DNA of 64,000 nt from positions 2,294,001 to 2,358,000 of the forward strand of contig NZ_CP028158.1 in the NCBI RefSeq assembly GCF_003030345.1, written 5' to 3'. Source of the DNA: Plantactinospora sp. BC1. Its GTDB lineage: Bacteria; Actinomycetota; Actinomycetes; Mycobacteriales; Micromonosporaceae. Below are positions 16,456 through 24,425 of this stretch, piece after piece. The notes beneath the pieces were generated by a model, which saw only the letters and a list, made by a program, of their open reading frames with translations, was not told the origin of the DNA and ran no database searches. The first letter of the stretch is position 1, and every line of letters starts with the position of its first letter. The position numbers and the translations under genes are program-made.

Positions 16456-16854
16456 CTAGGCCGGCGACCGTCCGTCTGTCGCCGCGACAAGAGCGTCGAC
16501 CCGCACAATGACCTGTAGGCACGGTGGGTGCGGGTCGACATCCGCCCAGGTGCAGGCAGGATGCTTGTGCCCGACCACCCAGACCCAGAGCCCCGCCGGG
16601 GCCGTGCGGACGGCGTTGCGGTGGATTCGAGACAAGGTCATCTCCAGGTACGTGCCGAGCGGCACCGTGGCGCAGTGCGACCACTCGCCGGGGCCGAGCC
16701 GGAGCAGGGTGCCGACCGGCAGCTCCGGGATCTCGACGGCGGGGGTGACGGTTGGGCGCGGCCCGGTCACCGCCACTCCCGGTACCGGCGCCAGCGGCGA
16801 CCATCCCAGCGGTAGTCGAGTACATAGCCCGGCAGACGCCGCAGCCACCACCAC
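16456..16854 (-). CDS. Hypothetical protein
   Basis: About 133 aa, not recognised. The frame reads 'LLRLGPGEWSHCATVPLGTYLEM', 'RTAPAGLWVWVVGH' and 'HPPCLQVIVRVDAL', a compact beta-rich domain with several Cys and Trp residues. It looks like a genuine protein, while the two other frames of this stretch give arginine-rich nonsense. The start is uncertain: three consecutive GTG codons occur at 16854-16846 without a clear ribosome binding site, and the gene begins 11 nt after the stop of the upstream small gene (16865), so it may be translationally coupled. No function is inferred. Confidence 0.5.
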   Translation of the reverse strand: MVVAAASAGLCTRLPLGWSPLAPVPGVAVTGPRPTVTPAVEIPELPVGTLLRLGPGEWSHCATVPLGTYLEMTLSRIHRNAVRTAPAGLWVWVVGHKHPACTWADVDPHPPCLQVIVRVDALVAATDGRSPA

Positions 16855-16864
16855 CGGAGCCAGC

Positions 16865-17104
16865 TCAGCACTGCTGTCCTGCCCTTTGCGGCAGTTGCAG
16901 GCCGAGGAGGAGGATCTGATCACACGAGGCCCGGGCCGGCTGGGCGGCGTCGGAGTCGTTCCCGTGGCCCAAATCGTCGCGCTGCCGGCGAGCCATTTCG
17001 AGCACCCGCTGACGCGCGGCCTCCGCTTCAGCCGCGTCGTGCTCCCGCGCTGCCCGCTCGACCGCTGCGATCCGGCGCTCTTTCCACCGTCCCAATATGT
17101 CCAC
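16865..17104 (-). CDS. Small hypothetical protein, charged helical
   Basis: A 79-aa protein starting 'VDILGRWKERRIAAVERAAR' and continuing as one long, charged Ala/Glu/Arg helix, probably a coiled coil, with a divergent tail. The GTG at 17104 is preceded by a very good GGAAGGAG at a suitable distance, which is the main evidence that it is translated. The frame is open upstream, but those codons are not needed. It probably forms an operon with the next gene (16456-16854). Confidence 0.55.
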   Translation of the reverse strand: MDILGRWKERRIAAVERAAREHDAAEAEAARQRVLEMARRQRDDLGHGNDSDAAQPARASCDQILLLGLQLPQRAGQQC

Positions 17105-17324
17105 CGCTCGCGCTCCTTCCGGATCGGAAAGCGCCGGCCCGGGGCTCGGCGGGGGATTGGCCCCGGGCGGGCGGGGCGCTCGGGTTGCGACCTCTGACAC
17201 CGTGAAGACACCGGTCGCGCGCCCCGCTCGTAGCCTCGCCGTAGCCGTGGGTGAGGGACAGGGTCGGCGCGTCCTCCGGCCGTCCGCCACTGATTCGATG
17301 TGCGTCCGCAGACGGTGGGACCAC

Positions 17325-17330
17325 TACGCT
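17325..17330 (+). promoter_or_regulatory. Candidate -10 box of cutA (leaderless)
   Basis: TACGCT ends 8 nt before the GTG start of cutA, a spacing that would place the first transcribed base at or next to the start codon. No ribosome binding site is present. A -35 box is not clear. Confidence 0.45.
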
Positions 17331-17338
17331 CTTCCCAC

Positions 17339-17671
17339 GTGACGGACTATCTCCAGGTGGCTACCGCGACCGAGACGCGCGACGCGGCGGTTGATCTCGC
17401 CCAATATGTCGTTGGCGCCCGGCTGGCTGGCAATGCTCAGATCGTCGGACCCGTGACCAGCGTCTTCTGGCATCTTGGTCAGCAGGGCACCGGGGAGGAG
17501 TGGCGACTGTTGCTCTATACGACAAGAGACCGATACGCAGAGCTTGAGGCCGCCCTAATAGCCCGGCACCCCTGGGACAATCCGCAGATAACCGCTACTC
17601 AGATTGTGGCTGGCTCTGCGGAGTGTCTGCGCTGGTTGCGGGAGTCCGTTGCCGAGCAAGCTGGGCGATGA
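17339..17671 (+). CDS. cutA: CutA1-like divalent ion tolerance protein
   Basis: A 110-aa protein of CutA1 length and fold. The C-terminal two thirds shows 'VFWHLGQ', 'EEWRLLLYTTRDRYAELEAAL' and 'RHPWDNPQITATQIVAGSAECLRWL', which match the family pattern (HPY/W-D-x-P-x-I, then a final Trp/Leu helix). CutA1 forms very stable trimers related to PII proteins and has been linked to copper tolerance, although its real function is unsettled. Its 3' end overlaps the 3' end of the convergent XRE gene by 77 bp. GTG 17339 is chosen because it begins the family homology and follows a -10 box in leaderless fashion. Confidence 0.85.
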   Translation: MTDYLQVATATETRDAAVDLAQYVVGARLAGNAQIVGPVTSVFWHLGQQGTGEEWRLLLYTTRDRYAELEAALIARHPWDNPQITATQIVAGSAECLRWLRESVAEQAGR

Positions 17672-18839
17672 CCATCTCCCGGAGATCCGCGACACAGCCC
17701 AGCCTCGCGTACGGGTCGAGTCGTCTGAGTAGGGATTCGATCCGCTGACGGGGTCGAACGGAGGCGACATCGGCGGAGAGCCGGAGCGCCTTCGCCGCAG
17801 TCGTGCAACACTGCTCGACCTCGTTGGCGTCCAGGTAGGCGTCAGCCAGCCAGGACAGGTACAGGGCCTTGTCCCGTGCGTGAGTGTCGTCATAGCGGTT
17901 GAGTACCGATTCCAGGATGGGAATCGCGCGCAGCGGCCGGTGCAGGACTGTCCAGCACCGTCCGGTCATGATCTCCGCTTCCTCATGGTCGACCCAGTAC
18001 ACCCAGTCGGGATCGGGTCGTTCATCCTGCTCGGTCAGGCAGGTCACGCCGATGCCGAGATGCCGTTCGGCTTCGTGATGCTGCTGGTCAACCGCGTGTA
18101 TCCAGGCACGGCGCATGTGCAGTAGGGCGCGGACGCCGGGCGTGGCAGTCGGCTCGGCAGTGTCACAAGCCGCGGTGATGGTCGGCGTGGCGGGCCGGCC
18201 CAGCGTCAGGTCCTGATAGGCGAGGAAGGCCATGGCGTTGCCGGCCAGCGGCGGGTCGTCGGCATCGCGAGCTGCGGAAAGGCTCGTGCGGTAAAGCTGC
18301 TCGGCGTCGCCGTACCGCCCTGCGTCAAATGCTGCCCAACCGGCCATCTGTGCCTGCTCGGCGCAGACTGAGAGCAGCGCGCGACCGGTGGTGTCCGCGT
18401 AGTCGCCCTGTTCGATGAGACGGACGGTAGAACGCAACTCGGCGGTGTACATCTCGTAGGTGTCGGCGCCGCCGAGGTAGTCGTCGATCCGTCGGAGCCG
18501 GGCGGTGCGTTCGGCGATCTGTCGGGGCACTTCAGGGCCGACGCGGCGCCCGTAGTCGAGCATTGTCTGGGGCAGAGCGACTGCCATCCCCGCGCGTGCT
18601 ATCACCTCCCGGCGCCGGATGCCGGTTGTGGCCAGAGCCGTCAACTCGCCACGTGCGCCGAGCGCGTCGTCGATCCGTTGAGCCGCCTGCTGCGTCGGCT
18701 CCTTTGCTCCGGTCTCCAGCTCGTGCAGATAACTCTTGCCATAGAAGGCGACCCGGGCGAGTTCGCGGAGAGATATCCCGCGCTCGGCGCGTAGCTGCCG
18801 CATCCGAGCCCCGAACCCCGGCGTGGAAGTTGCGAACAT
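17595..18839 (-). CDS. XRE-family regulator with TPR-like C-terminus
   Basis: A 414-aa protein. Residues 8-62 form a helix-turn-helix of the XRE/lambda-repressor type ('GARMRQLRAERGISLRELARVAF...SYLHELETGAKEPT'). The remaining 340 residues are helical repeats of TPR character ('AGWAAFDAGRYGDAEQLYRTSL', 'ERHLGIGVTCL', 'ALYLSWLADAYLDANEVEQC'). Such proteins are widespread in actinomycetes, act as sensors of small peptides or proteins, and often control a neighbouring mobile or developmental locus. GAGAGG lies 5 bases before ATG 18839. It could control the CutA gene or the small genes to its left; this is inference. Confidence 0.88.
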   Translation of the reverse strand: MFATSTPGFGARMRQLRAERGISLRELARVAFYGKSYLHELETGAKEPTQQAAQRIDDALGARGELTALATTGIRRREVIARAGMAVALPQTMLDYGRRVGPEVPRQIAERTARLRRIDDYLGGADTYEMYTAELRSTVRLIEQGDYADTTGRALLSVCAEQAQMAGWAAFDAGRYGDAEQLYRTSLSAARDADDPPLAGNAMAFLAYQDLTLGRPATPTITAACDTAEPTATPGVRALLHMRRAWIHAVDQQHHEAERHLGIGVTCLTEQDERPDPDWVYWVDHEEAEIMTGRCWTVLHRPLRAIPILESVLNRYDDTHARDKALYLSWLADAYLDANEVEQCCTTAAKALRLSADVASVRPRQRIESLLRRLDPYARLGCVADLREMVIAQLARQRTPATSADTPQSQPQSE

Positions 18840-19006
18840 TGGCGCCTCTCATGTTGAGGACCCAGCCGTTGACCTCTGCTTTTCGACAGCGGTCGTTGTG
18901 GACGATACCGGGTAGAGACATGCGCCGACACCGATTGCCACGAGGATTTCGGCCCGAGGTTGTGCGGGCAGGCGTCCTCGTGCTTCCGGAGCCACCTGCG
19001 GTGGAG

Positions 19007-19455: not shown

Positions 19456-19492
19456 AAACGCCCGGCAGATCCGTGCGGTCTGCCGGGCGTTT
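19456..19492. terminator. Hairpin flanking the duplicated tRNA-Ser fragment
   Basis: AAACGCCCGGCAGA (19456-19469) pairs with TCTGCCGGGCGTTT (19479-19492). It carries the same arm sequence as the terminator behind tRNA-Ser(CGA) at 1473-1508. I infer that this is the original chromosomal terminator of tRNA-Ser(GGA), displaced by the insertion. Confidence 0.65.
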
Positions 19493-19500
19493 GCGCTGCT

Positions 19501-19562
19501 CAGGTGAGCGGAGGATACGAGATTCGAACTCGTGAGGGTGTGAACCCAACACGCTTTCCAAG
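19501..19562 (-). repeat. Duplicated 3' part of tRNA-Ser(GGA) (att repeat)
   Basis: 62 bp identical, apart from two bases, to 21331-21392, in the same orientation. It covers the whole 3' part of tRNA-Ser from the anticodon loop to the acceptor 3' end plus 8 flanking bases. The match stops at the first base beyond the anticodon loop. It lacks the 5' half, so it is not a functional tRNA. This is the classical attachment-site duplication of a tyrosine-recombinase element. Confidence 0.88.
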
Positions 19563-19810
19563 TCTGCCAGGCCCTGTCCGGTGTGCGGGACGGCCGGCTA
19601 CACGATGCCCGGCATACTGCCGCAACCGCGCTCCTGGTCCTGGGCGTCTCCGGCCGCGCTGTGATGGGCATCATGGGCTGGTCGAACTCGGCCATGGCGG
19701 TTCGCTACCAGCACATGACCAACCAGGTACGGCGGGACATTGCCCAGCAACTCGGCATACTGCTCTGGGGAGAGCCGTCGGCGGATCAGGCAGGAAGTAC
19801 GATTGGGTAA
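19563..19810 (+). pseudogene. Tyrosine recombinase (integrase), C-terminal remnant
   Basis: Only the last ~80 residues of a phage-type integrase survive. 'GRLHDARHTAATALLVLGV' carries the H-x-x-R box, 'IMGWSNSAMAVRYQHMT' carries the second His/Trp position and the nucleophile Tyr, and then comes the tail 'RRDIAQQLGILLW'. The first catalytic Arg and the whole core-binding domain are missing. The homology begins within a few bases of the edge of the tRNA-derived repeat (19562), so the truncation point coincides with the att border. The stop at 19810 is intact. The preserved segment is typical of integrases from actinomycete integrative elements. Confidence 0.85.
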
Positions 19811-19908
19811 CGACAGTTTTGCCTGGTCAAGCGGTTGAAGTGAATGCGTTAGCGGCATCTGCGACTGATCTTGAACAGGTTGATCGTAGCGGTGTCGCAC
19901 CCTTCCGG

Positions 19909-19914
19909 CATAAT
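19909..19914 (+). promoter_or_regulatory. Candidate -10 box of the Shedu gene
   Basis: CATAAT ends 7 nt before ATG 19922, and no ribosome binding site is visible. The spacing fits leaderless transcription. A TTGATC at 19880-19885 is too far (23 nt) to be a normal -35 box. Confidence 0.45.
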
Positions 19915-19921
19915 CAGCGCC

Positions 19922-21154
19922 ATGGAAGTTAGATCCGACTGGGCACTTGAGCTGCAGTTGCGGCAAATCGAAAAGGTAGCGGAGCGGCAAGAGGTCAAGA
20001 CTGCCCTTTCGGCGGTGTTAGCGCACATTGCTGGTGGAGGCCGGAATCGCCGAGGCGGGCGGCAGTTGCTAACACTTCTAGGAGAGGCTCGTGACGAGGC
20101 GGCTGCTGCTGCCGAATGGCAGGTGGTACGGCTGGTTCTAGACTCAATCGATTACGCGGAAGGGCGGATCCTGAAGCCTGAGTTCGAGGAACGATATCGA
20201 CTCTTTCAGGATGGAGCGGACCGCGATAGGCATCTCCGAGATGCATTGGGGGGATCTTTGAGGGGGGCATTTCAAATTGCCGCAGATGAAGGCGCGAATT
20301 ATCTGAGCAAGAATCCTGAGGCTAGTGTGGAGGAGGTGATAGAGCACATGCGGGGCATAGGGAAGGATGCTCAATTCCTTCATGCGCCAGTCGATCGGCC
20401 AGGCCGTTATCGCATTGTTCGTGGACAAGCGGAGCTGTCTTTGTGGCTAGAGCAGGTCCTCCGAGGTAAAAGGATCGATGTAGAGGACGTCGAGATAATT
20501 GCCCGAGAGCTAGCCATGTCTCCTGAAGCCCTGGCGGTACTTGCCGCAGATAGGAACGGGCAGCTGATATTTGGTGCCGCAGAACTTCAGCGGCGTGCGT
20601 CTGACCTGAGAGGCTTGCGTAGGGTTGTTGAGGACCGGCGCGCTTCCGAGCTTGACCTTCAACGAGCCCTCGAAGGGCAGCACTGGATTTTCGGTGGGAG
20701 ATTTATTGGGGAGGCCGCACACCGTAGGCTGGTACCCGGTGACGAAGTCGATATACCGCTGATTCGCGGTGACGGTGCCCTGCATGTGGTTGAACTGAAG
20801 CTGTCGATGAATTTGAGCGGTCCATTAGTGAAGCGGCATCGGAACGCGTGGGTGCCGTCGGGGAAGGTGCACGACGCTGTCGGGCAGGCAGTGAACTACC
20901 TGGTCGGCTTGGATGAGAATCGGGAACGTATCCGTCGTGATTTTGGGGTAGAGACTCGCCGGGCGAGCGCGCTGGTGCTGATCGGGCATCCGGCGTTGCA
21001 GTCGGAGGTGCCGGAAGACGAGATTAACGAGACGCTACGGACTCTCAACACGCATCTGAGCCGTGTGGAGGTCCTCACCTACAAGGAGCTTGTCGACAAT
21101 GCCGAGCGCAGCCTTGGCGGGTCCGTCGGGGTGGCCTCTGTGCCGTCCCCCTGA
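19922..21154 (+). CDS. Shedu-type (DUF4263) nuclease, probable anti-phage protein
   Basis: 410 aa. The C-terminal ~170 residues match the Shedu/DUF4263 domain, a PD-(D/E)xK nuclease. 'ASELDLQRALEGQHWIFGG' with E243 is followed by D277 in 'GDEVDIPL', E291-x-K293 in 'VVELKLS' and Q322 in 'AVGQAVNYL'. All expected acidic, Lys and Gln positions are present, so it should be active. The N-terminal ~240 residues are helical and probably sense the phage signal; they resemble no domain I can name. Shedu is a single-gene defence system that cuts DNA during infection. The gene is the only intact one in the tRNA-Ser element. ATG 19922 is chosen because a -10 box lies 7 nt upstream; an alternative TTG at 19871 would precede that box. 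The gene has clearly more A/T in third positions than its neighbours, suggesting recent acquisition. Confidence 0.83.
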   Translation: MEVRSDWALELQLRQIEKVAERQEVKTALSAVLAHIAGGGRNRRGGRQLLTLLGEARDEAAAAAEWQVVRLVLDSIDYAEGRILKPEFEERYRLFQDGADRDRHLRDALGGSLRGAFQIAADEGANYLSKNPEASVEEVIEHMRGIGKDAQFLHAPVDRPGRYRIVRGQAELSLWLEQVLRGKRIDVEDVEIIARELAMSPEALAVLAADRNGQLIFGAAELQRRASDLRGLRRVVEDRRASELDLQRALEGQHWIFGGRFIGEAAHRRLVPGDEVDIPLIRGDGALHVVELKLSMNLSGPLVKRHRNAWVPSGKVHDAVGQAVNYLVGLDENRERIRRDFGVETRRASALVLIGHPALQSEVPEDEINETLRTLNTHLSRVEVLTYKELVDNAERSLGGSVGVASVPSP

Positions 21155-21282
21155 CGTTGGCACCGTTCGGCGGAGATCCACTCTCCTGGGCGCTTGTCTC
21201 CTGGGATGCCAGACCAAGCAGGCGGTCGACTGACTCGAACCGGACAACTGAGACGGAAATTGAGACGAGAGTGCTCAGAGTG

Positions 21283-21320
21283 ACGTCGAGGCCGGTCCCG
21301 TGCGGGGCCGGCCTCGACGT
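21283..21320. terminator. Hairpin between Shedu gene and tRNA-Ser(GGA)
   Basis: ACGTCGAGGCCGG (21283-21295) pairs with CCGGCCTCGACGT (21308-21320), extended by CCC/GGG inside and followed by TTTCT on the plus strand. It can terminate the Shedu transcript and, from the other side, the tRNA. Confidence 0.7.
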
Positions 21321-21330
21321 TTCTGCTGCT

Positions 21331-21392
21331 CAGGCGAGCGGAGGATACGAGATTCGAACTCGTGAGGGTGTTAACCCAACACGCTTTCCAAG
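21331..21392 (-). repeat. att repeat, copy within the intact tRNA-Ser(GGA)
   Basis: The partner of the 19501-19562 repeat (60 of 62 bases identical). It spans from 8 bases outside the tRNA 3' end through the anticodon loop. Similarity in the form GCTGCTCAGG extends about 7 bases further out in both copies. Confidence 0.88.
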
Positions 21393-21423
21393 CGTGCGCC
21401 CTAGGCCTCTAGGCGAATCCTCC
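21339..21423 (-). tRNA. tRNA-Ser(GGA)
   Basis: On the minus strand GGAGGAT (21423-21417) pairs with ATCCTCC (21346-21340), discriminator G at 21339, CCA not encoded. The anticodon GGA is at 21389-21387 in a normal 7-nt loop, with a long variable arm and the T-loop GTTCGAATC. It reads UCC/UCU. It is the insertion site of the adjacent element. Confidence 0.96.
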
Positions 21424-21506: not shown

Positions 21507-21595
21507 GGCACCCCCCGTGTGGCGTCACCTCGTGAACCTCCCCAGGGCCGGAAGGCAGCAAGGATAAGCGAGCTCTGGCGGGTGCACGGGGGGCC
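21507..21595 (+). ncRNA. ffs: Signal recognition particle RNA, small (4.5S) type
   Basis: The conserved SRP domain IV is plain: 'GTGAACC' before, then 'CCCAGGGCCGGAAGGCAGCA', whose GGAA tetraloop and symmetric and asymmetric loops bind Ffh. Long-range pairing of CCCCCCGTG (21511-21519) with CACGGGGGG (21585-21593) closes a single ~90-nt hairpin. A short pyrimidine run follows. Position between a serine tRNA and dnaX is common in actinobacteria. Confidence 0.95.
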
Positions 21596-21809
21596 TTGTC
21601 TTCCCCCCCACGAGTGGTCCCTGACCAGCCCGGGACCGCCGCCTCGGTCCGACCGGCCGGTCGAGACGCCACCTGCCTCCCGTGATTGCCCGCCGCTCAA
21701 CCGTCCGGTGGCCGGTGGCGGTGGAAATCGTCGGGCGCGCGTGACAACCTTGGCACTCGGCAGCGCGGCGGCGGGTGGAGAATGGCCCGGTCGAGAGGAG
21801 GCGGGACGA

Positions 21810-24425
21810 GTGGCACTGGCGCTCTACCGCAAGTACCGGCCCCGCACGTTCGCCGAGGTGATCGGCCAGGAGCACGTCACCGAGCCGCTGTCCCAGGCGC
21901 TGCGTACCGGTCGGTTGAACCACGCCTACCTCTTCTCCGGTCCCCGTGGCTGCGGCAAGACCTCCAGCGCCCGGATCCTGGCCCGTTCGCTCAACTGCGA
22001 GCAGGGGCCGACCCCGGAGCCCTGTGGCGTCTGCGACTCGTGCAAGAGCCTGGCCGCCGACGGGGCCGGCTCGATCGACGTGATCGAGATCGACGCGGCC
22101 AGCCACGGCGGTGTCGACGATGCCCGTGAACTGCGCGAACGTGCCTTTTTCGCCCCGGCCAGCAGCCGCTTCAAGATCTATGTGATCGACGAGGCGCACA
22201 TGGTCTCGACCCAGGGCTTCAACGCCCTGCTGAAGCTGGTCGAGGAGCCGCCGGAGTACGTCAAGTTCATCTTCGCCACCACCGAGCCGGAGAAGGTCCT
22301 CGGCACGATCAAGTCGCGGACCCACCACTACCCGTTCCGGCTGATTCCTCCGGGCGTGCTCCGGCCGTACCTGGAGCAGCTCGCCTCGGCCGAGGGCGTC
22401 AAGATCGAGCCGGCGGTCTTCCCGCTCGTCGTCCGGGCCGGCGGCGGGAGCGCCCGGGACTCGCTCTCGGTGCTCGACCAACTTATCGCCGGTGCCGGCC
22501 CCGAGGGGGTCAGCTACGCCCGCGCGGTCGCCCTGCTCGGGGTGACCGACGCGGCCCTGATCGACGAGATGTGCGACGCGCTCGCCGCCGGGGACGGTGC
22601 CGCCGCGTACGCCACCATCGACCGGGTCGCCGAGGCCGGGCACGACCCCCGCCGGTTCGCCTCCGACCTGCTCGAACGGCTCCGCGACCTGATCGTCATG
22701 CGCCAGGTGCCGGACGCGGTCGCCAAGGGCCTGATCGACGGCCCGGCCGACCAGATCGAGCGGATGGCCGCCCAGGCCGAACGGCTCGGCCCCGCCACAC
22801 TGTCCCGCTGCGCCGACATCGTGCACAACGGCCTGGTCGAGATGCGCGGCACCACCGCCCCCCGGCTGCTGCTCGAACTGATCTGCGCCCGGATGCTGCT
22901 GCCCGGCGCCGAGGACTCCACCGGCAGCCTGCTGCAACGCCTCGAACGCATGGAGCGCCGGCTCACCCTCTCCGGTGACGCGGCCCCGGCCGCCGCCCCG
23001 ATCCGCCCGCCGGCCGCCGCCGCAGACCCGGGCACGCCCCCCGCGCCCACTCCCGCACCGCCGGCCGCCGCCAGCGCCGCGCCGGTCGCTCCCCCTCCGC
23101 AGGTACGCGAAACCACCGCATCCGGGCCCAGCCAGGCGCCCGCCGTTCCGGCTGAGGAGCGGCCGGAGCCACCGGCCCGGCGGCCGGTCCCGCCGGAGGC
23201 GGTGATGCCCGACCCGGCCACCCCGGATCCGATGCCGGCCGGTGCCGAGCCGACGGGCGAACTCGACGCCGCCGCCGTACGCCGGGTCTGGGGCGAGGTC
23301 GTCGGCATGGTCAACCGGAGCAACAAGCGGATCGCCGCCCTGATGCGCGACGCGGTCGTACGCGACCTCGACGGTGACACCCTGGTGTTGACCGTCAAGT
23401 CTCCGGTACTCGCCCAGATGCTCGCCAACTCCGCCAGTGTGCTCACCGACGCCCTCTACGAGGAGTTGGGCGGGCGTTGGCAGATCCGGTGCGAGGTGGC
23501 CGGCGAGCAGCGCGGGCCGGCGCCGACCGCCCCGCCCCGCCAGTCGACCGGCAGCGGACCGGCCGCGAACGGCACCCCGCCCCGGGGCGGCAACGGCTCG
23601 GCCCCGTCCGGTGGTGGCCGGGGCGCGAGCGGCGGCCGGGAGCGCACGACCGGACCCTCCGGCGCGGGCGGTTCGACGCCGTCCAGCGCCGATGACGACG
23701 ACTGGCCGGAGCCGGCCCGACCCGGTGGTGTCGCACCCGGTGCGGCGGCCGACGACGACTGGCCCGAGCCGACGCCGCCGGGCGGCACCGCTGCCGCCGC
23801 CACGACAGGCGCGACACCCGCAGCGGCGTCGTCCCCCGGTGGCACCGGCACGCCGGCCGTCGGCGGTGGCTCGACCGGCGGCGCCGGCAGCCGTACCAAC
23901 GGCAGCACCGCACCGGGCGGTGGCCCCGGGGCCACGGGCGCCGGCAACAGCGCCTCCGCCGGTAAGAGCGCGTCCGTCGGTAAGAGCGCGTCCGTCGGTA
24001 AGAGCGCGTCCGCCGGCAACAGCGCCGCCGTCGGTAGCGGAGTGTCGGGCGGTCATGGCTCGGGCGGCAGCGGCGTCGGTGTGCCGAACGGTGGGCGTAC
24101 CGGTGCGGGACCCGGCGGTGGCGCGGTCAGTTCCGGGCTCGCGGCGGCCCGGGCGGCGGCGGCCGGCCGTGGACCGAAACCGGCCCCGGCGCCGGAGCGG
24201 ACGGCGGACCGGGACTGGGCCGGCGAGCCGCCCTACGACCCCGACTACGACAGCCCGCGCCCGTCGACGGCGACGATCGGCTACGAGGGCTTCGACCCCG
24301 GGGACGAGCCCCTCGACGAGGTGATCGACGAGCGGACCGCCCGGCAGACCAGTGAGCAGCAGGCGGTGCAGTTGTTGCAGCAGACCCTCGGCGCGGAGCG
24401 GATCGGCGAGGTCGACCTCAAGTAG
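21810..24425 (+). CDS. dnaX: DNA polymerase III subunit gamma/tau
   Basis: 871 aa, the clamp-loader motor of the replicase. The first ~370 residues are the AAA+ module: 'GPRGCGKTSS' (Walker A, about residue 45), a zinc site C-x8-C-x2-C-x2-C in 'CEQGPTPEPCGVCDSC', 'VIDEAHM' (Walker B), 'NALLKLVEEPP' and the 'SRTHHY' sensor. From ~390 comes a Pro/Ala linker, then the conserved 'VRRVWGEVVGMVNRSNKRIAAL' polymerase-binding domain III/V (about 490-570). A very long low-complexity Gly/Ser/Pro tail (570-830) contains an 18-bp tandem repeat, with a conserved acidic end 'GAERIGEVDLK'. There is no sign of a frameshift site for a short gamma form. GTG 21810 follows AGGAGG and begins the 'ALALYRKYRP' homology; the frame is open upstream into ffs and must not be used. 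Confidence 0.96.
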   Translation: MALALYRKYRPRTFAEVIGQEHVTEPLSQALRTGRLNHAYLFSGPRGCGKTSSARILARSLNCEQGPTPEPCGVCDSCKSLAADGAGSIDVIEIDAASHGGVDDARELRERAFFAPASSRFKIYVIDEAHMVSTQGFNALLKLVEEPPEYVKFIFATTEPEKVLGTIKSRTHHYPFRLIPPGVLRPYLEQLASAEGVKIEPAVFPLVVRAGGGSARDSLSVLDQLIAGAGPEGVSYARAVALLGVTDAALIDEMCDALAAGDGAAAYATIDRVAEAGHDPRRFASDLLERLRDLIVMRQVPDAVAKGLIDGPADQIERMAAQAERLGPATLSRCADIVHNGLVEMRGTTAPRLLLELICARMLLPGAEDSTGSLLQRLERMERRLTLSGDAAPAAAPIRPPAAAADPGTPPAPTPAPPAAASAAPVAPPPQVRETTASGPSQAPAVPAEERPEPPARRPVPPEAVMPDPATPDPMPAGAEPTGELDAAAVRRVWGEVVGMVNRSNKRIAALMRDAVVRDLDGDTLVLTVKSPVLAQMLANSASVLTDALYEELGGRWQIRCEVAGEQRGPAPTAPPRQSTGSGPAANGTPPRGGNGSAPSGGGRGASGGRERTTGPSGAGGSTPSSADDDDWPEPARPGGVAPGAAADDDWPEPTPPGGTAAAATTGATPAAASSPGGTGTPAVGGGSTGGAGSRTNGSTAPGGGPGATGAGNSASAGKSASVGKSASVGKSASAGNSAAVGSGVSGGHGSGGSGVGVPNGGRTGAGPGGGAVSSGLAAARAAAAGRGPKPAPAPERTADRDWAGEPPYDPDYDSPRPSTATIGYEGFDPGDEPLDEVIDERTARQTSEQQAVQLLQQTLGAERIGEVDLK
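23943..24032 (+). repeat. 18-bp tandem repeat inside dnaX
   Basis: Five consecutive 18-bp units of the form GGTAAGAGCGCGTCCGTC (the first and last more diverged) encode the hexapeptide G-K/N-S-A-S/A-V/A. The middle three are nearly identical, so the array is young or kept homogeneous. It lies in the disordered tail, where length variation should be tolerated. Confidence 0.9.

Follow-up and report, generated by a model that had tools for sequence, protein, structure and literature searches.

The 64,000-nucleotide stretch of Plantactinospora sp. BC1 DNA analyzed here (the window) very probably harbors the decayed remnant of an AICE-type element at a tRNA-Ser(GGA) gene, in which one cargo gene, sduA, was stranded and would act as a Shedu nuclease; this is the explanation that best accounts for the locus as a whole. 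The family of the protein, the conservation of its active site, the anatomy of the element, the deletion within it, and the patchy distribution of the gene were all read directly from the sequences compared. In the scenario that we propose, an AICE-type integrative element would have integrated at the 3′ end of tRNA-Ser(GGA) with sduA as its cargo, placed between the tRNA and the integrase gene. The replication, transfer, and excision genes and the attL-side repeats would then have been removed by a deletion that begins some 15 bp inside attL and ends within the integrase gene, leaving sduA stranded. A defense gene outliving its carrier can be followed here through the relatives, as complete integrases, the remnant form, the lost attL repeats, and the kept cargo are comparable at a single tRNA site.

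The element is bounded by a duplication of the 3′ part of tRNA-Ser(GGA), the two copies lying 1.83 kb apart (Table 1). The 62-bp direct repeats described in the initial annotation were thus found to be real, and when extended without gaps they cover 80 nt (19488-19567 and 21318-21397) with 93% identity. Apart from these two copies, no third site matching the 30-nt repeat core with at most two mismatches was found in the 8.33-Mb chromosome, and the pair therefore goes beyond what chance would give. The left copy terminates in CCAAG-TCTGC, an ending shared with the attL of three elements of relatives (L072, L073, and L076), and the bases immediately inside attL, CCAAGTCTGC, also agree with the attL of these three elements. 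Between the repeats, coding potential was assigned to two ORFs only, a 75-aa integrase end (19583-19810) and the 410-aa sduA gene, and the gene calls bore out the earlier claim of one intact gene in this interval, as expected for a single-gene system such as Shedu. The inverted repeat beside the tRNA 3′ end is, judging from its sequence, the probable terminator of the tRNA; a consensus terminator scan returned none at the locus. The gene that follows at 21810 is presumably dnaX, judging from its N-terminal sequence. The tRNA-dnaX stretch is 85-92% identical in the same-genus and same-family loci L052 and L054-L061.

Table 1. Features of the tRNA-Ser(GGA) remnant and its flanking markers (window coordinates).
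Feature	Position	Strand	Basis
attL, displaced tRNA-Ser(GGA) 3′ part	19501..19562		60/62 identity with 21331-21392
Internal-deletion junction, attL fused to integrase gene	19563..19577		Onset of integrase homology and missing attL-side pair
Tyrosine integrase C-terminal remnant	19578..19810	+	PF00589; first listed ORF start 19583
sduA, Shedu nuclease (predicted anti-phage), 410 aa	19922..21154	+	PF14082, PDLC00401, active-site residues
Paired AACTGAGAC/AATTGAGAC repeats, 12 bp apart	21246..21266	+	Likely attR integrase arm sites (putative role)
Inverted repeat beside tRNA 3′ end, 18-nt arms, 94% complementary	21283..21320	+	
tRNA-Ser(GGA), 3′ part = attR core	21338..21423	-	ARAGORN
Small SRP RNA (ffs), flanking marker	21509..21598	+	Rfam RF00169, 66.8 bits
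dnaX, flanking marker	21810..24425	+	Gene call; presumed from N-terminal sequence

The integrase C-terminal remnant noticed earlier was confirmed by a match of the ORF to positions 129-170 of 172 of PF00589 (E 1.4e-08) and by a local model built from the three complete integrases of L037, L062, and L063, which was matched at positions 339-405 of 412 (E 2e-30). Over 196-197 bp, the remnant is 88% identical at the nucleotide level to the complete integrase gene of L076 (196 bp), 87% to that of L077, and 86% to that of L074, and the elements carrying these three genes all occupy the tRNA-Ser(GGA) site adjoining dnaX. Homology to complete integrase genes begins at 19578 (L037, L062, L072, L073, L075, L076, and L077) or at 19580 (L063 and L074), and the deletion has one end some 15 bp inside attL and the other within the integrase gene, so that mobility of the element has probably been lost, as far as its sequence can tell. 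No replication, transfer, or excision gene was called between the repeats, and the window element is thus to be regarded as a remnant and not as an AICE.

The attR side of the remnant carries a pair of TGAGAC repeats near the tRNA, whose exact form occurs at this one place in the chromosome. A AACTGAGAC-type 9-mer was found at most 100 bp from the tRNA 3′ end in all nine complete-integrase elements, six of which have two copies 12 bp apart; since L072, L073, L076, and L077 served, with the window, to define the motif, five of these nine elements are independent of its definition. In a wider flank test of 31 rows, chosen from the available loci rather than comprising all loci (30 distinct sites, G009 being present twice), the 9-mer was near the tRNA in 17 rows and missing in 14, including the mini-element L071. 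Across 150 family genomes, the exact pair was matched 53 times, in 39 of them, versus a single match for the reversed control, and 15 of these 53 matches, in 12 genomes, were at most 150 bp from a tRNA-Ser core copy. All nine complete-integrase elements also carry the pair on their attL side, where it has 0-2 mismatches and begins 85-114 bp inward of the core, and the same holds for three of the four other integrase-less elements (L056, L069, and L070), L071 having half of it only. The best attL-side site in the window has seven mismatches, a value that was also the most frequent one among 2000 random 260-bp stretches of the window, and the attL-side repeats were therefore lost with the deletion. 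The paired repeats are likely integrase arm sites of the attR side; the accessible text on pACPL describes similar repeats flanking the att segment (PMC3364876). The earlier suggestion that the element lost its mobility and the defense gene was kept is supported, as the integrase and the attL-side repeats are gone and sduA is intact.

The assignment of the 410-aa protein to Shedu/DUF4263 was upheld by profile searches. Pfam placed SduA_C (PF14082) at residues 242-390 (E 3.6e-12; 47.2 bits versus a cut-off of 27), and the PADLOC SduA model PDLC00401 matched residues 1-401 over positions 1-400 of 404 (E 4.1e-176, 584 bits). The latter match lies within the 2021 PADLOC rule for Shedu (E 1e-25 and at least 50% coverage, as given in the available part of PMC8565338). 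Seven further PADLOC SduA models match the window protein, all from residue 220 onward only. The residues D277, E291, K293, and Q322 are as first described, the upstream Glu is E243, and all five are invariant in the 18 sequences of an alignment in which SduA_C was detected by Pfam in every member. This alignment comprises the window protein, 14 of the 16 loci named in a scan of close relatives, two of four relatives from the genome set, and the second SduA of L043; L046 and L050 (match without the first part), L003 (broken frame), and L005 (C-terminal match only) were left out. The window SduA shares 59-64% amino-acid identity with the 14 named aligned homologs, none of which has an internal stop. 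An hmmsearch with the 18-row profile reached the solved Shedu chain 8ps4 (E 0.0089) through the D...ExK...Q stretch only. On the basis of these sequence comparisons, the protein is classified as a further member of the known Shedu defense family and not as a new type of system. A second, divergent SduA-type gene was observed in Streptomyces lushanensis (L043:971-2188), about 6 kb from the first and 33% identical to the window protein.

The less G/C-biased codon use attributed to sduA was likewise confirmed. When genes were called without regard to GC3, sduA ranked last in GC3 among the 41 window genes of at least 150 aa (0.605; mean 0.916, sd 0.063), and the second-lowest value in this set (0.771) is that of an NsdA-family gene left of the repeat. 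This regulator lies with a CutA1-like gene (GC3 0.669) at 17300-18839, left of attL, and the block 16494-18847 is retained in genome G003. As GC3 is also low left of attL, several acquisition events may have contributed to the wider region.

The distribution of sduA is patchy. Matches were found in five of 61 genomes, its own included, one of them (G024) being a weak C-terminal match, and in none of the six same-genus genomes. In a phylum sample, three of 296 genomes matched, again including its own and one weak C-terminal match. The 16 named loci are all actinobacterial according to their record titles. No SduA homolog was found in the phage collection, and plasmids gave two partial matches, restricted to the C-terminal half. 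Three of 17 sduA loci (the window and the 16 named, six of which end early at contig ends) are near tRNA-Ser(GGA) and dnaX, namely the window, L037, and L051; the available DNA of L051 showed no second copy of the tRNA core and no paired-repeat motif. The sduA locus of L047 ends at its contig end. In Nonomuraea antri (L044:7664-9686), an sduA homolog lies between a partial tRNA-Gly(CCC) repeat and the tRNA-Gly gene, with two additional partial tRNA-Gly repeats further left, a layout similar to that of the window at another tRNA. Small ORFs near sduA in L044 and L039 look like integrase ends on inspection but were discarded as remnants, the match of L039 to the model being weak (E 0.0032) and no integrase domain being detected by Pfam in either.

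The survey of the interval in relatives, which the initial annotation had called for, showed that sduA is absent from 6/6 same-genus genomes and that the interval varies rather than being conserved in all relatives; its contents differ within the genus, with, for example, NACHT/TIR genes in G003. The tRNA 3′ flanks of nine other genomes were aligned in a search for empty sites. In G004 (87% over 45 bp), G016, and G003, the tRNA flank is similar to the terminator-like attL flank; these were not accepted as clean empty-site alleles of the genus, as the attL-like flanks of all three themselves carry the arm motif. In five genomes, G001, G005, and G006 of the same genus and G007 and G009 of the same family, the core is present once, with no exact motif at 250 bp or less; these may be empty sites (G001 on a 4.5-kb contig).

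Use of the tRNA-Ser(GGA)/dnaX site by related elements is recurrent. Of 150 family genomes, 122 contain the 30-nt core, and in 11 it occurs twice on the same strand within 20 kb. A complete integrase is present at six of these double-core sites (L072-L077); four of the five others (the window, L056, L069, and L070) retain only the C-terminal end of the integrase, and one (L071) has neither. The gap between integrase and tRNA measures 78-96 bp in five of nine complete-integrase elements and 1237-2323 bp in the other four. In L073 this gap encodes a cytosine methylase together with an EcoRV-like endonuclease, and in the window the same space is occupied by sduA; among the gap ORFs tested in L075 and L077, no recognizable defense gene was found. 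Further cargo at the site includes a GmrSD-type protein with a HipA-like protein in L071 and a NACHT-LRR protein in L073. In a Streptomyces relative (L037), sduA, RepSA, and a full-length integrase lie between an exact 86-bp repeat and tRNA-Ser(GGA), followed by dnaX. This locus also encodes an Xis-like HTH protein beside RepSA (E 6.7e-139), and its transfer gene is apparently truncated, with a short FtsK match only. Its sduA lies on the opposite side of the replication and integrase genes, a cargo position unlike that of the window. These observations make the tRNA-Ser(GGA)/dnaX site a practical hunting ground for actinobacterial defense genes. Two other arrangements were noted at such sites. 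In G003, of the same genus, DUF4062-NACHT and STAND/TIR-type proteins are encoded beside the arm motif (L052:8485-11885), and this DUF4062-NACHT/TIR gene pair is a candidate two-gene defense system. In G048 (L063:3422-4637), 1.1 kb between two tRNA-Ser cores contain a PIN-domain (VapC-like) gene preceded by a small ORF.

The same anatomy could be read in the opposite sense, with the unit being a cis-mobilizable element (CIME) moved by the integrase and excisionase of a related AICE, so that a short repeat-flanked Shedu cassette would have been selected and would represent no dead end. The attL core, the attR core, and the attR repeats are indeed retained, and, in the available text of PMC5704250, such elements are said to lack integration and transfer genes yet to retain attL and attR; a Frankia AICE with a truncated integrase was still excised, according to the portion of PMC3218068 at hand. 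Moreover, the integrase-less L056, L069, and L070 have repeats on both sides at the same site, and the Nonomuraea sduA (L044) sits between a partial tRNA-Gly repeat and tRNA-Gly. We nevertheless consider this reading improbable, since the window is devoid of the attL-side repeats, which are whole in 12 of the 13 elements compared and half present in L071, and no second integrase of the subfamily of the remnant was found in the chromosome, the other seven integrase matches being 24-46% identical.

A decayed AICE-type remnant with a functional cargo gene would also have to be distinguished from one in which sduA itself is decaying like the integrase and is open only because the deletion is recent. 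The element is broken, and no sigma-70-like promoter consensus was found for sduA, both of which would fit such decay; the reading frame of 410 codons is nonetheless unbroken and encodes all the listed active-site residues, and the 59-64% identity of its product to 14 named homologs, all without internal stops, makes ongoing decay a very doubtful account. It is also unlikely that the DUF4263 nuclease has a role unrelated to phages, for instance in maintaining the element or in keeping out incoming AICEs. Two lineages (the window and L037) have sduA on elements at the tRNA-Ser(GGA) site, which is compatible with such a role, and the domain alone is insufficient proof of defense, but the protein matched the PADLOC SduA model and other elements at the site carry defense-like restriction-modification, GmrSD-type, and NACHT genes. 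The decayed remnant with a retained Shedu nuclease thus remains the preferred reading.

Much of the initial annotation held for this reading, namely the Shedu assignment, the tRNA-Ser element, the loss of mobility, and the retention of the gene. Its proposal of a new Shedu subtype, made for an N-terminal region unlike any domain it could name, was not borne out: because PDLC00401 spans the whole protein, the N-terminus lies inside a catalogued family, and its status as a new sequence family was ruled out in the same way. Beyond SduA_C, the best Pfam match in the 18 members had an E of 0.023, each other family appearing in one to three members, and even at E up to 1 they gave no match to a GHKL ATPase domain. 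When the single sequence was searched against the PDB, the N-terminus was reached by 3fn2 alone (E 1.4, not significant).

By homology with other Shedu proteins, the window SduA should most likely be a sensor-gated DNA nuclease. The C-terminal PD-(D/E)xK nuclease (E243, D277, E291, K293, and Q322) would be kept inactive at rest; binding of a feature of phage DNA, for example an end, by the N-terminal region (about residues 1-220) would release it, and the activated protein would nick or cut the invading DNA. In this scheme we infer that sduA is expressed, that its product oligomerizes and acts against phages, and what the N-terminus senses. It is conceivable, and proposed here only tentatively, that the N-terminus of this clade (1-220) is a type of sensor that may respond to a new phage trigger, as it has no solved or Pfam-named relative, and that the gene has spread as a swappable defense cargo of an AICE family in tRNA-Ser(GGA)/dnaX whose members repeatedly decay to short, repeat-flanked, cargo-keeping remnants. 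The N-terminus of this Shedu clade is in any case a clear target for structural study.

Regarding known mobile elements, insertion at a tRNA 3′ end, att repeats, and a tyrosine integrase, here as a C-terminal remnant, are common to the window element and to AICEs such as pSAM2 and pACPL, as these are presented in the available text of PMC3364876 and PMC3218068, and the RepSA/Xis-like/integrase layout of L037 is that described there for AICEs. The AICE genes RepSA (L037) and Xis-like HTH are present in relatives of the window element, whereas in the window nothing of such an element is left but the att cores, the repeats on the attR side, and the C-terminus of the integrase. With CIMEs, as characterized in the accessible part of PMC5704250, it shares retained attL and attR cores and lost integration and transfer genes. 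It differs from them in the loss of the attL-side repeats, which makes its mobilization in trans doubtful. In the portion of PMC11706625 available, a Shedu gene appears among phage-defense systems near diDNase genes, some of them in AICEs, so that the proximity of defense genes to AICE genes is in itself no novelty. Judged by titles, the literature search found no Shedu/Streptomyces paper on this clade, and nothing was found that combines AICE, tRNA-Ser, and defense.

Among Shedu proteins, the window SduA corresponds most closely to PDLC00401, with the same full-length match (1-401), SduA_C nuclease, and single-gene organization, and it adds nothing beyond that model. The solved Shedu chain 8ps4, which may be EcSduA, has 411 residues versus 410 in the window SduA, and the D...ExK...Q nuclease cores of the two were aligned by profile. 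EcSduA, a type I Shedu (Loeff et al. 2025), is described in the accessible text of PMC12904381 as a tetramer whose N-terminal clamp holds DNA ends and which nicks at a fixed distance; this N-terminal part has no detectable sequence similarity to the window SduA. In VcSduA, of type I-D, both a GHKL ATPase N-terminus and the nuclease are required, according to the available part of PMC12137116. The window clade differs from VcSduA in giving no GHKL ATPase match and resembles it in its C-terminal PD-(D/E)xK domain.
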